From: Chitinophagales bacterium
GTDB lineage: Bacteria; Bacteroidota; Bacteroidia; Chitinophagales; UBA10324
Length of the DNA stretch: 64,000 nt
Assembly (NCBI GenBank): GCA_025057275.1
Contig: JANWXQ010000094.1
Coordinates: 19,834-83,833, forward strand
Direction: 5' to 3'
Part shown: positions 27,484 to 53,573 of the stretch, in pieces
How positions within the stretch are numbered: position 1 is the stretch's first letter
How the letters are laid out: the number at the start of each line of letters is the position of its first letter
Program-made: the position numbers and the translations under genes
The notes under the pieces: model-generated
What the model was told of the DNA's origin: nothing
Seen by the model: the letters and a program-made list of their open reading frames with translations, nothing else
The model's database searches: none

Positions 27484-28488
27484 TCAGGACAGACGCTTTC
27501 TAATCGTTTCCACGATGTTTTTCATTCTGTGCAGATTCATCAAAAATGCTGCTCCCAGTTTCAATGGCCAGAGCACTGCATACAGCAGCCCCATGATCGG
27601 ATGGCATCGCACCGGCGCCGGTTCATAGCCCAGCGTCTTCATCAACTGGCCACAAACGCGTTGACAGATCCAGATTTCCGTTGCTGTCAGGCCACCACGC
27701 GCCCAGCTTTGCGCCCTTCCGGCATTGATGCCTTTTACCTCGCTGCGGTCCTGTCCGCTGGATGAACCTACCTGCGGCACTTCTTTTAGCTCCGGAAAAA
27801 AGGTTATCCCGACATGACGGCAAACCTCCGCTATGACGCTGTCGGGATCAGCCAACAGATGCTCAAACCGCACGGTGAGCACATGAGGATGCTGCACCGA
27901 AGTGCCCGCCCGCACGGCTGCCACCCAAAGTCGGCTGATGGTGTAAGGATGATAGTTGACCCAGGCGCGTATGGTTTCGTACCAGGTGGCATGCGAGCCG
28001 CCCAGAAAACGACGCCGCCACTTGCGTTTTTGCGACAGAAGCACGTCGCGCGGATCGCGCACCAGGTTGACAAAGCGGGCTTCGGGAAACAATTCCAGTA
28101 TTTCCTTAATATAAAAAACATTTTGCGGCGTTTGATCGCAACCCATCTCTTTTCCGTTTCGCTGCACTTCGTAGCGCACTACGGCAGCAAACACGTCGCT
28201 GGCCACCATGTGACCGGACACTTCCCGTTGCAGCAGGCTGCGGGCTTCATCCAGGAAATCGGCCACATGGCGTCGGGCAAAATAGCCCTCGCGCGATATG
28301 TTCAGCAACAAAGCGGCCAGATCTGCAGCCTCTTCCGGTGTCAACTGCCAGTTGCGGTCAGCTGAAGACCACAACTGTTCAAAAAAATGCAGCTCGGGAA
28401 AGGTGTGGACGCGGGGATGATTGTTGAGAATGCGACCCATCATGGTCGTGCCGCTTCGGCTGTTGCCGACAACAAAAACCAGGGTCAT
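27484..28488 (-). CDS. Sulfotransferase (Sulfotransfer_3-like)
   Basis: A 334-residue PAPS-dependent sulfotransferase. The 5'-phosphosulfate loop is VGNSRSGTTMMGRIL near residue 7, and the 3'-phosphate motif is FVNLVRDPRDVLLSQ. The PRDVLLS form and the absence of the KE-x-x-F segment set it apart from the six other sulfotransferases in the window; it resembles the family that includes tyrosylprotein and some carbohydrate sulfotransferases. It lies at the distal end of the polysaccharide locus, separated from the main operon by a CBS protein, and has its own TATCTTCG box. Its acceptor is unknown; a role in the same polymer is inferred from position. Confidence 0.82.
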   Translation of the reverse strand: MTLVFVVGNSRSGTTMMGRILNNHPRVHTFPELHFFEQLWSSADRNWQLTPEEAADLAALLLNISREGYFARRHVADFLDEARSLLQREVSGHMVASDVFAAVVRYEVQRNGKEMGCDQTPQNVFYIKEILELFPEARFVNLVRDPRDVLLSQKRKWRRRFLGGSHATWYETIRAWVNYHPYTISRLWVAAVRAGTSVQHPHVLTVRFEHLLADPDSVIAEVCRHVGITFFPELKEVPQVGSSSGQDRSEVKGINAGRAQSWARGGLTATEIWICQRVCGQLMKTLGYEPAPVRCHPIMGLLYAVLWPLKLGAAFLMNLHRMKNIVETIRKRLS

Positions 28489-28494
28489 GAGCGG

Positions 28495-28502
28495 CGAAGA
28501 TA
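28495..28502 (-). promoter_or_regulatory. TATCTTCG -7-like box
   Basis: The minus strand reads TATCTTCG, 6 bases before the sulfotransferase ATG at 28488. The same octamer recurs before four other minus-strand genes. Confidence 0.4.
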
Positions 28503-28530
28503 CAGTGCGGCCCTACGCTCCGGCCACTCA

Positions 28531-28959
28531 TCAGCTTCCGGCTATGTATTGCTCCAGGTGTTGGATGGTGGATTGCTGCTCTTCTATAACGGCCTTAACC
28601 ACATCGCCGATGGAAATAAGACCCACCAGTTTTCCGTTTTCCATCACCGGCAAATGGCGAATGGCATTGTTGGTCATCAGCTTCATGCAATCCGAGGTAT
28701 CGTGGTCGGGCGTTACGGTAATCAGGTCGGTTACCATAACGTCGCGAATCAGGCTATCGGCTGATGTCTTGCCTTTCAACACGATTTTACGGGCGTAGTC
28801 GCGTTCGGTGAAGATGCCTACTGCCGTTTCCCCTTCCATAACCAGGACGCCGCCGATGTTACGTTCGGCCATTTTTTTCAGGGCATCCAGCACGGTAGAG
28901 GCCGGCGTAACCGACACTACTTCGTTTCCCTTTCGCCGTAATATCTCACGAACCTTCAT
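28531..28959 (-). CDS. Two-CBS-domain protein
   Basis: A 142-residue protein consisting only of two CBS motifs (about residues 8-62 and 75-132; GVLVMEGETAVGIFTERDYARK and HLPVMENGKLVGLISIGDVV mark the two halves). CBS pairs bind adenine nucleotides and usually regulate a partner protein. Stand-alone versions of this size are common in bacteria, with mostly unknown partners. It sits between the last two parts of the polysaccharide locus. A TAACTTCA element upstream is a weak promoter candidate. Confidence 0.88.
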   Translation of the reverse strand: MKVREILRRKGNEVVSVTPASTVLDALKKMAERNIGGVLVMEGETAVGIFTERDYARKIVLKGKTSADSLIRDVMVTDLITVTPDHDTSDCMKLMTNNAIRHLPVMENGKLVGLISIGDVVKAVIEEQQSTIQHLEQYIAGS

Positions 28960-29010
28960 AGCAAGCCCTCTTGGAATTTCAGATGAAGTTACAAAAAATC
29001 CCTTGCTTCC

Positions 29011-51887: not shown

Positions 51888-52459
51888 CGGATTCGGCGGA
51901 CGTTTCCTTCAACCAACTGATAGTGCTGTCCGCTTTCCGGACAAACGGCCAGCCCATTGGTGTTGAACTGCAAACGGTGCCCGAATTCGCTCATCCAGCC
52001 AATCTGACGGGCGGGATTGCCCACTACCAAGGCATAAGGTTTCACGTTTCGCGTAACCACAGCACCGGCACCTACAAAAGCATATTCACCGATGGTCACT
52101 CCGCAAATGATGGTAGCGTTGGCGCCTATGGTGGCGCCCCGTTTCACCAGGGTCTGGCGAAACTGCTCCCTGCGGTTTACCGCACTGCGTGGGTTAACCA
52201 CATTGGTAAACACCATGGAGGGACCCAGAAAAACATCGTCTTCGCAAACGACACCGGTATACAACGAAACGTTGTTCTGCACTTTGACGTTGTTGCCCAA
52301 TTTCACTCCTGAAGCCACCATCACGTTCTGGCCCAGTGTGCAGCGCTCACCCAATTCGCAGTCAGGCATCAGGTGACAGAAATGCCAGATGCGACAACCC
52401 GCCCCGATGCGGCAACCCGGGTCAATCACTGCGGTTTCATGGGCAAAATAGTCTGCCAT
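51884..52459 (-). CDS. WbpD-like hexapeptide N-acetyltransferase
   Basis: A 191-residue left-handed beta-helix acyltransferase. Hexapeptide repeats run through VIDPGCRIGAGCRIWHF, GERCTLGQNVMVASGV and VKRGATIGANATIICG, with NVVNPRS and GNPARQIGW as in WbpD, which acetylates UDP-3-amino-sugar uronates. No WbpB oxidoreductase or WbpE aminotransferase lies nearby, so the full diacetamido-uronate pathway is incomplete here. A TAGGTTTG box at 52481-52488 overlaps the alternative ATG at 52483, so I take the ATG at 52459. Confidence 0.85.
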   Translation of the reverse strand: MADYFAHETAVIDPGCRIGAGCRIWHFCHLMPDCELGERCTLGQNVMVASGVKLGNNVKVQNNVSLYTGVVCEDDVFLGPSMVFTNVVNPRSAVNRREQFRQTLVKRGATIGANATIICGVTIGEYAFVGAGAVVTRNVKPYALVVGNPARQIGWMSEFGHRLQFNTNGLAVCPESGQHYQLVEGNVRRIR

Positions 52460-52480
52460 ATGGCGGTTGGGTAAAGGCCG

Positions 52481-52488
52481 CAAACCTA
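52481..52488 (-). promoter_or_regulatory. -7 promoter box for the wbpD-like/dehydrogenase genes
   Basis: The minus strand reads TAGGTTTG, a TAnnTTTG match, 21 bases before the ATG at 52459. Its position argues against the upstream in-frame ATG at 52483. Confidence 0.5.
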
Positions 52489-52625
52489 ATAGAATTTAAT
52501 GCTATTTCTGCTGCCGGAGTTGCAGCTTTCTGAAAGGTACTTGCCGGTAATTTTTGCAAAAACATGTCGTTTGGGGAAACACGAATGCGTTCCTTAACAC
52601 TTCCGCTACTACCTACAAAAATTGG

Positions 52626-53573
52626 CTAGGCGGAATAGGCAACGGCTTTCTTGAAATACTCGTAAGTTATTTTGAGGCCTTCGCTTCGCGGCACACGGGG
52701 TTCCCAGCCTAACAACTGCCGGGCGCGGCTGATGTCGGGCTGCCGCTGCCGGGGATCATCCTTGGGTAATGGCCGGAATACGATTTTTTGCTGCGTTCCC
52801 GTAAGCCGGATGATTTCCTCGGCAAACTGTAGAATGGTAATCTCATCCGGGTTGCCCAGATTTACCGGAAGATGATAGTCAGTAAATAAAAGGCGGCAGA
52901 TTCCTTCCACCAGGTCAGAAACATAACAGAAGCTGCGCGTCTGCGAGCCATCGCCGTAAACTGTCAGGTCCTGTCCGGTAAGAGCCTGATAGAAAAAGTT
53001 GGGCAGCACGCGTCCGTCGTTCAGGCGCATGCGCGGGCCATAGGTATTGAAAATCCGTACGATGCCGGTGTTCAGCCCGTGCGCCTGATGATAGGCCATG
53101 GTCAGCGCTTCCTGAAACCGCTTGGCTTCGTCGTACATGCTGCGAGGCCCTACGGGGTTGACGTTGCCCCAGTAATCCTCGTTTTGCGGATGCACCAACG
53201 GATCACCATACACTTCAGAAGTAGAGGCCACCACGATACGCGACCCTTTGGCTTTGGCCAGCCCCAGGCAGTTGTGGGTGCCCAGGGATCCCACCTTCAT
53301 GGTTTGAATCGGCCAGCGCACATAGTCGGCGGGACTGGCCGGCGAAGCAAAATGAAGAATATACGGCAGGTCGCCGGGCACATGGACAAAACGGGACACG
53401 TCGTGATGATAAAAACTGAAATTGGGTTTGGAAAAAAGATGCTCAATGTTGCGCAGGTCGCCGGTGATCAGATTGTCCATGCCCACCACGTCGAAGCCCT
53501 CGGCTACAAACCGATCGCACAAATGCGAGCCTATGAACCCGGCAGCGCCGGTTATCAGGATCCGCTTGGTCAT
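52626..53573 (-). CDS. UDP-glucuronate decarboxylase-like SDR
   Basis: A 315-residue extended SDR: TGAAGFIGSHLCDRFV at the N-terminus, DNLITGDLRNIEHL, FASPASPADYVRWPIQTMKVG, TSEVYGDP, catalytic Tyr-x3-Lys in RSMYDEAKRFQEAL, and RIFNTYGPRMRLNDGRVLPNF. These match UXS-type enzymes, which make UDP-xylose from UDP-glucuronate. A dTDP-sugar dehydratase is a less likely alternative. The ATG at 53573 is preceded by a TATCTTCG box 4 bases away; a longer frame starts at 53618. It is the first gene of the polysaccharide locus on this strand. Confidence 0.85.
   Translation of the reverse strand: MTKRILITGAAGFIGSHLCDRFVAEGFDVVGMDNLITGDLRNIEHLFSKPNFSFYHHDVSRFVHVPGDLPYILHFASPASPADYVRWPIQTMKVGSLGTHNCLGLAKAKGSRIVVASTSEVYGDPLVHPQNEDYWGNVNPVGPRSMYDEAKRFQEALTMAYHQAHGLNTGIVRIFNTYGPRMRLNDGRVLPNFFYQALTGQDLTVYGDGSQTRSFCYVSDLVEGICRLLFTDYHLPVNLGNPDEITILQFAEEIIRLTGTQQKIVFRPLPKDDPRQRQPDISRARQLLGWEPRVPRSEGLKITYEYFKKAVAYSA

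Follow-up and report, generated by a model that had tools for sequence, protein, structure and literature searches.

A stretch of 64,000 nucleotides on contig JANWXQ010000094.1 of a Chitinophagales bacterium from the UBA10324 lineage (hereafter the window) carries a minus-strand block of 24 genes that runs from 53618 down to 27484, with neighbours overlapping or less than 150 bases apart. In the order of transcription the first half encodes a short-chain dehydrogenase/reductase (SDR) resembling UDP-xylose synthase (UXS), a WbpD-like and a TviB/WbpA-like protein, RmlB, a TviC-like protein, Wza, a Wzz-like protein, CpsB, CysQ, a membrane-bound O-acyltransferase (MBOAT) and its SGNH-like partner. 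There follow ST7, Wzx, ST6, ST5, ST4, a GT2 enzyme, a Wzy-like protein, ST3, ST2, a GT4 enzyme, a second SDR, a CBS protein and ST1, where ST1 to ST7 are sulfotransferases numbered upward from position 27484. Our best reading is that the predicted product is a heavily sulfated, O-acylated Wzx/Wzy polysaccharide: the seven sulfotransferases would modify one small lipid-linked repeat unit, from which the Wzx/Wzy machinery would make a heavily sulfated, exported polymer (probability roughly 0.7).

The original prediction, made from the DNA letters, had placed seven sulfotransferases here that depend on 3'-phosphoadenosine 5'-phosphosulfate (PAPS). Open reading frames (ORFs) exist at all seven positions, and in a Pfam scan every one passes the PF00685 cut-off of 22 bits, with scores from 43.8 to 57.4. 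They are given below with bit scores against cut-offs and clade support as UFBoot/SH-aLRT; the mechanical ORFs of ST4 and ST6 begin further upstream than the starts listed.

27484 to 28488, minus strand: ST1, sulfotransferase of the Sulfotransfer_3 type (PF13469 112.4 against 27; clade 100/100)
31155 to 32045, minus strand: ST2, sulfotransferase (PF00685 56.6 against 22; clade 98/99; model nearest to 3rnl, NDST1 and heparan sulfate 3-OST)
32026 to 32976, minus strand: ST3, sulfotransferase (PF00685 50.2 against 22; clade 100/100)
35386 to 36339, minus strand: ST4, sulfotransferase (PF13469 72.4 against 27; clade 88/96)
36371 to 37303, minus strand: ST5, sulfotransferase (PF13469 58.8 against 27; clade 92/69)
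37287 to 38171, minus strand: ST6, sulfotransferase (PF00685 57.4 against 22; clade 99/97)
39689 to 40579, minus strand: ST7, sulfotransferase (PF00685 43.8 against 22; clade 100/100)

In the window's genome (G000; 99.44% complete, 2.48 Mb in 108 contigs) PF00685 matches nine times, with seven matches inside the window and two elsewhere; when nine sites were placed at random, 100,000 trials gave no case of seven within 13.2 kb. In a tree of 63 rows from the window and its relatives each of ST1 to ST7 forms one clade, and the support is starred for five of the seven, ST4 and ST5 being the exceptions. Compared with their counterparts in G001, a genome of the same genus, the seven differ at a proportion of 0.08 to 0.19 of nonsynonymous (pN) and 0.71 to 0.81 of synonymous sites (pS), the latter near saturation. 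Separate clades and purifying selection thus indicate that the seven sulfotransferases are old, retained paralogues. Every one of the seven window copies, for which sulfuryl transfer to a sugar is predicted, shows the patterns for the 5'- and 3'-phosphates of the cofactor site; across the 63 rows the P-loop and the 3'-phosphate pattern are each found in 54, and the acidic [KP]E motif, whose glutamate we take to be the catalytic base as in the animal enzymes, in 60. The P-loop of ST7 is unusual in that SATR stands where the other sulfotransferases of the locus have GTT, and it is kept in all seven ST7 rows.

Stretches from 13 of the 15 relatives in the family (G005 and G013 were left out) were compared by matching the window proteins to their ORFs. 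This comparison strengthens the reading: all 24 genes occur in the same order in G001 and in G003 and G007 from two other genera (three genera in total with the window's own), with extra ORFs interrupting the order in places. A fourth genus, represented by G008, has 16 of the 24 genes, from CysQ to ST1, in order and with all seven sulfotransferases; the 15 kb of sequence read beyond CysQ contain none of the remaining eight. With the window's genome included, the order of all seven sulfotransferases is fixed in five genomes from four genera. Parts of the locus lie on short contigs in G009 and G011, and G002 has a distant version. PF00685 matches were found in all 16 family genomes searched, the window's own among them, at 4 to 13 per genome. 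A scan for the MBOAT partner returned eleven loci, nine of them in family genomes and all labelled Chitinophagales, Chitinophagaceae, Chitinophaga or Bacteroidetes/Bacteroidota; it used two peptide patterns only, and a restriction to the family is not implied.

The locus had been likened to a bacterial counterpart of glycosaminoglycan sulfation, and the likeness holds at the level of the enzyme fold, for ST2 by model and for the set by profile. The model of ST2, the sole member modelled, is closest to 3rnl, NDST1 and heparan sulfate 3-OST, and among structures of named function the heparan sulfate sulfotransferases are the most alike; 3rnl is an Alicyclobacillus acidocaldarius sulfotransferase whose entry title names no substrate and hence no function. 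The animal heparan sulfate N- and 3-O-sulfotransferases share 20-25% identity with the locus enzymes in alignments, and Pfam scans of the locus proteins, unlike the animal N-sulfotransferase, revealed no deacetylase domain.

The remaining genes of the block, again in transcription order and with scores in bits against cut-offs where one applies, are as follows.

52626 to 53618, minus strand: SDR nucleotide-sugar enzyme, presumably UDP-xylose-synthase-like (PF16363 164.1; no NCBIfam cut-off passed)
51884 to 52483, minus strand: WbpD/WlbB-like N-acetyltransferase of the hexapeptide type (best PDB match 3mqg 241.6, next 133.2)
50586 to 51887, minus strand: nucleotide-sugar 6-dehydrogenase, TviB/WbpA-like (TIGR03026 369.7 against 189.8; TviB model 449.7, cut-off 592 not reached)
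49486 to 50544, minus strand: RmlB, dTDP-glucose 4,6-dehydratase (TIGR01181 467.1 against 365.1)
48436 to 49434, minus strand: TviC-like C4 epimerase, an SDR (TviC model 287.4, top of the list, cut-off 760 not reached)
45987 to 48338, minus strand: Wza-like outer-membrane polysaccharide exporter (PF02563 73.9 against 28; five SLBB stretches)
44821 to 45969, minus strand: Wzz-like co-polymerase (two terminal membrane segments; weak family matches)
44078 to 44824, minus strand: CpsB/CapC-type phosphatase (PF19567 127.4 against 27)
43241 to 44077, minus strand: CysQ, 3'(2'),5'-bisphosphate nucleotidase, for removal of 3'-phosphoadenosine 5'-phosphate (PAP) (TIGR01331 292.7 against 228.8; PDB CysQ 3b8b 237.3, next 90.5)
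41653 to 43095, minus strand: MBOAT membrane O-acyltransferase (PF03062 88.9 against 27)
40560 to 41693, minus strand: SGNH/DltD/AlgX-like MBOAT partner (ALGX 16.2 against 26.5; model matches DltD at E 7.8e-06 with a TM of only 0.35)
38225 to 39661, minus strand: Wzx-like flippase (PF01943 70.4 against 28.2)
34304 to 35389, minus strand: GT2-family glycosyltransferase (PF00535 39.1 against 23.3)
32976 to 34325, minus strand: predicted Wzy-like polymerase (position; weak PF04932 match in the L047 orthologue)
29984 to 31264, minus strand: GT4-family glycosyltransferase (PF00534 85.3 against 26.4; true start probably near 31171)
29011 to 30000, minus strand: SDR nucleotide-sugar enzyme, PF16363/PF01370 (PF16363 181.1 against 27; mechanical ORF starts at 30228)
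28531 to 28959, minus strand: two-CBS-domain protein (PF00571 93.1 against 24; also in G001, G003, G007, G008 and G009)

The assembly genes reported to accompany the sulfotransferases were recovered with uneven firmness. The Wza-like exporter (PF02563, SLBB), the Wzx-like flippase (PF01943), the two glycosyltransferases, the MBOAT and the nucleotide-sugar enzymes are clear, and the Wzx/Wzy-pathway roles hold firmly for Wzx and Wza; Wzz, Wzy and the MBOAT partner are weak. The Wzz-like protein shows the two membrane segments that a Wzz should have (residues 40-58 and 340-358) and no family match above cut-off. For the Wzy-like protein of the window neither Pfam nor the PDB gave a match; of its three scanned orthologues one has a weak similarity to PF04932 (Wzy_C), at 20.7 bits against a cut-off of 31.7. 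Searches of the PDB with the MBOAT partner gave two chance-level matches and nothing else, and three of the four SDR enzymes passed no NCBIfam cut-off. In six genomes, that of the window among them, a stand-alone two-CBS-domain protein is retained as a neighbour of ST1 or of the SDR; CBS pairs often bind adenine nucleotides, and the protein might be a sensor of PAP, AMP or PAPS.

An initiating glycosyltransferase, the presence of which the original prediction had proposed as a check, is encoded twice in the genome. Contig C90 carries a WcaJ-type enzyme (TIGR03023 452.5 against 410.75 bits) and contig C20 a second PF02397 protein, either of which is a candidate for priming the polymer. The gene adjoining WcaJ on C90 encodes a GFO/IDH/MocA dehydrogenase (WbpB-like), with best PDB matches to 3q2i and 3q2k; these entries are named only dehydrogenase or oxidoreductase, and we take them to be WlbA enzymes. 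Near WcaJ lies a WbpI-like 2-epimerase, for which the best PDB matches are UDP-2,3-diacetamido-2,3-dideoxy-glucuronic acid 2-epimerases (388.0 bits, the next kind at 275.1). On contig C17 a DegT aminotransferase, whose best PDB match is WbpE at 328.9, level with 8e75 at 328.0, stands beside an ORF that by eye resembles UDP-glucose dehydrogenase. Together with the WbpD-like and TviB/WbpA-like proteins of the window, a route to UDP-activated 2,3-diacetamido-2,3-dideoxy-mannuronic acid (UDP-ManNAc3NAcA; WbpA-B-E-D-I) is likely. Candidates exist for five of the five enzymes, split over three places; WbpD and WbpI are clear by best PDB match, WbpA passes a broad dehydrogenase model alone and WbpE is tied with 8e75. 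As candidates for all five are present, 2,3-diacetamido-2,3-dideoxy-mannuronic acid is probably one sugar of the polymer. This predicted aminouronic acid is not the same as the glycosaminoglycan repeating disaccharide of hexosamine and uronic acid. A diacetamido-uronic acid is also found in the anionic lipopolysaccharide (A-LPS) of Porphyromonas, and the product could be a sulfated A-LPS that anchors cargo of type IX secretion, as opposed to a free exopolysaccharide or capsule. In keeping with this, a copper type II monooxygenase-like protein near the locus (55755 to 57320; PF01082 36.1 against 30 bits) has a match to a type IX sorting tail that does not reach cut-off (PF18962 25.2 against 27 bits), and the family weakly matched by the Wzy-like orthologue is described in Pfam as O-antigen ligase. 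The Wza-like exporter and its Wzz-like and CpsB-like partners, by contrast, point to capsule or exopolysaccharide export, and we consider an A-LPS quite unlikely.

The PAPS synthesis genes, likewise proposed as a check, are present: on contig C19 the gene for adenosine 5'-phosphosulfate (APS) kinase (CysC) adjoins that for ATP sulfurylase (Sat; 491.3 against 387 bits). Two similar CitMHS/TrkA_C transporters stand in tandem beside them, upstream of the APS kinase (L113:4998-8800); G001 shows the same arrangement with one transporter, the APS kinase being identified there by search and the others by eye. Removal of PAP is provided for within the locus by CysQ, a gene absent from the original prediction that adds to its interpretation. 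CysQ scored over cut-off in 11 of the 13 family genomes searched, in one copy each, and in eight of these 11 it lies inside the locus (G000, G001, G003, G006, G007, G008, G011 and G012). In G016 and G021, two genomes from the wider order whose sulfotransferase rows were available in full, it shares no contig with any sulfotransferase. No match to the PAPS reductase family PF01507 was detected in G000, G001, G007 or G009, with a control positive in 14 of 14. Sulfation, the only sink found, would accordingly appear to be the main use of PAPS in G000, as judged from PF01507.

In the mechanism that we propose for a single sulfated polysaccharide, the WcaJ-type transferase encoded on another contig would start the unit on a lipid carrier, and its extension would fall to the GT2 and GT4 enzymes. 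ST1 to ST7 would then add sulfate at different positions in the cytoplasm, with CysQ destroying the inhibitory by-product PAP. The Wzx/Wzy machinery would flip and polymerise the sulfated repeat, which the MBOAT and SGNH-like pair may O-acylate outside the cytoplasm, before export through Wza. Animal glycosaminoglycans, in contrast, are sulfated on the polymer; sulfation ahead of polymerisation would result in an evenly sulfated chain.

Several considerations weigh against this reading. The polymer, its sulfate, its export, the enzyme activities and the action of all seven sulfotransferases on one polymer are predictions from genes, the Wzy and Wzz assignments are drawn from position and weak matches, and the heparan sulfate kinship of the set is modelled in one member. 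CysQ lies on another contig in three of 11 genomes (G002, G004 and G010). By hand count, about six to nine hydroxyls are free on a three-sugar repeat. Seven sulfates and the acyl groups would crowd so small a unit, which leaves either additional glycosyltransferases at work or, for some of the sulfotransferases, acceptors of another kind. ST1, unlike the other six, finds its best PDB matches, which are weak, among polyketide and tyrosylprotein sulfotransferases, and in G003, G007 and G008 two to six kb of other ORFs separate it, alone or with the CBS gene, from the rest. The locus might thus make a sulfated, exported polysaccharide with its seven sulfotransferases divided among at least two acceptors: only some would act on the repeat unit, and lipopolysaccharide, a lipid or the glycan of a glycoprotein could be among the other targets. 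We regard such a division of labour as somewhat unlikely in view of the order fixed across four genera and the interleaving of ST2 to ST7 with wzx, wzy and both glycosyltransferase genes in ORFs that mostly overlap.

Genus g6 (G006, G010, G012, G014 and G015) keeps the flippase, polymerase-like, transferase and mostly the acylation genes. Of the seven sulfotransferases no more than two or three appear in the stretches read, and a working locus therefore does not need them all. In G012 the g6 version includes ORFs that by eye are RmlD- and RmlC-like (L046:12172-13637), hinting at rhamnose in that polymer. The reduced g6 set could also signify that several sulfotransferases are decaying duplicates without separate function, as could the partial locus of G004 (CAN_BIN04, L051), where the stretches of ST5 and ST6 contain in-frame stops owing to either decay or assembly error, and the nine rows that miss the P-loop pattern, among them every ST6 row of g6 (five) and three from G004 and G009. 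Against decay stand the separate clades spanning genera, the low pN and the cofactor-site patterns, intact in every window copy and in most rows, which render it very improbable.

The sulfate economy carries its own counterweights. PF01507 matches occur in nine of the 13 family genomes (that of G011 below cut-off), and loss of PAPS reduction is therefore not family-wide. Sulfite reductase (PF01077) was undetected in 19 of 20 genomes, with a control positive in 11 of 14, and since 15 of these 19 have a PF01507 match its absence alone carries little weight. Only tentatively, and at clearly less than even odds, do we extend the single-polymer reading to a bacterial counterpart of heparin, in which up to seven sulfates per repeat would be placed before polymerisation by seven position-specific enzymes of the heparan sulfate type. 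On this view the genus would have abandoned sulfate reduction and would take up sulfate, make PAPS and retain CysQ for no purpose other than sulfation, chiefly that of the polymer.

Loci for sulfated polysaccharides are already known as a kind, with synechan and the Cobetia capsule as examples, and the present one is a conserved, extreme variant. In the portions of the synechan report available to us, the xss cluster of Synechocystis PCC 6803 is likewise a Wzx/Wzy-type exopolysaccharide cluster with sulfotransferases; its sulfated product has been demonstrated (PMC8205485). Its two sulfotransferases, which accompany two sulfates per repeat, and eight glycosyltransferases compare with seven and two here, and the present locus differs further in its CysQ, MBOAT pair and aminouronic-acid genes and in its host, a member of the Bacteroidota and not a cyanobacterium (PMC8205485). 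The capsule cluster of Cobetia marina KMM 1449, as described in the extracts consulted, contains cysQ, with PAPS genes and a gene for a sulfate permease as neighbours, and so sets a precedent for CysQ in such a locus; it is of the ABC-transporter type and holds its PAPS genes in the cluster, whereas the present locus has CysQ only and PAPS synthesis is encoded on another contig (PMC11766843). According to the sections available, Vibrio sp. KMM 8419 combines sulfotransferases with PAPS genes in a capsule cluster whose sulfated, acylated polymer is known by NMR; its three sulfotransferases are spread over an 80-gene region, one being tied by the authors to the O-antigen, and the organisation was common to one of two further strains and was found by the authors in no public genome (PMC11641403). 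Predicted loci for sulfated or glycosaminoglycan-like polysaccharides include, in the excerpts at hand, Actinoplanes wps-1 with two sulfotransferase genes (PMC13390465) and the Pontiella F21 cluster with one (PMC7356697).

The original prediction had also held that sulfotransferases seldom exceed one or two per capsule locus, which proves overstated. Clusters of four or five PF00685 members occur in six of 25 non-family genomes searched in full, which were chosen for many matches or candidates and not at random. The densest, counted by hand, have five in G162, G376 and G252 (in G252 on both strands) and four in G421, G054 and G036, and G180 has three plus one below cut-off. In G162 (C2:157000-176000, L124) at least five mixed sulfotransferases lie beside Wzx-like and MBOAT-like genes in a different Bacteroidota locus, so polysaccharide loci with multiple sulfotransferases exist elsewhere. 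A draw across the phylum gave a PF00685 match in at least 90 of 392 genomes, the per-genome counts being lower bounds because about six candidates at most were scored in each. Given clusters of four or five in other Bacteroidota, seven is the top of the range observed and not a class apart; its distinguishing marks are seven orthologues retained as a fixed set, the CysQ inside the locus and a PAPS supply without visible reductive use. In the literature, as far as the retrieved texts extend, our search found no described locus with more sulfotransferases than the three of the Vibrio region, and a search on Chitinophagales and sulfotransferase returned nothing relevant. The consulted part of a study of Shark Bay mat metagenomes reports no sulfotransferase gene in Bacteroidetes genomes, with other queries and in another habitat (PMC9723792).

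Sulfated glycoconjugates are widely found in the matrix of granular sludge, and the bacterial pathways and producers are described, in the passages available, as not well known (PMC10483923, PMC7356697). The present locus points to one lineage of Chitinophagales in which a candidate pathway is conserved and almost complete. Should the enzymes each act at a position of their own, the set would offer a ready bacterial toolkit for making defined, oversulfated chains of the heparin kind. A genome that encodes PAPS synthesis, and in which no PAPS reductase can be detected, would also exemplify cleanly the use of sulfate purely for decoration.

Outside the main locus, contig C96 of the same genome has a further sulfotransferase ORF that by eye overlaps the end of a flippase-like ORF (L114:9754-12104), perhaps a second small sulfated-glycan locus. 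Beside the 24 genes, minus- and plus-strand ORFs overlap at 53662-55722; the minus ORF is without a Pfam match and the plus ORF, of 677 amino acids, may be the real gene. Further out, beyond the monooxygenase-like protein, lies an ORF of 1953 amino acids at 57412-63273.

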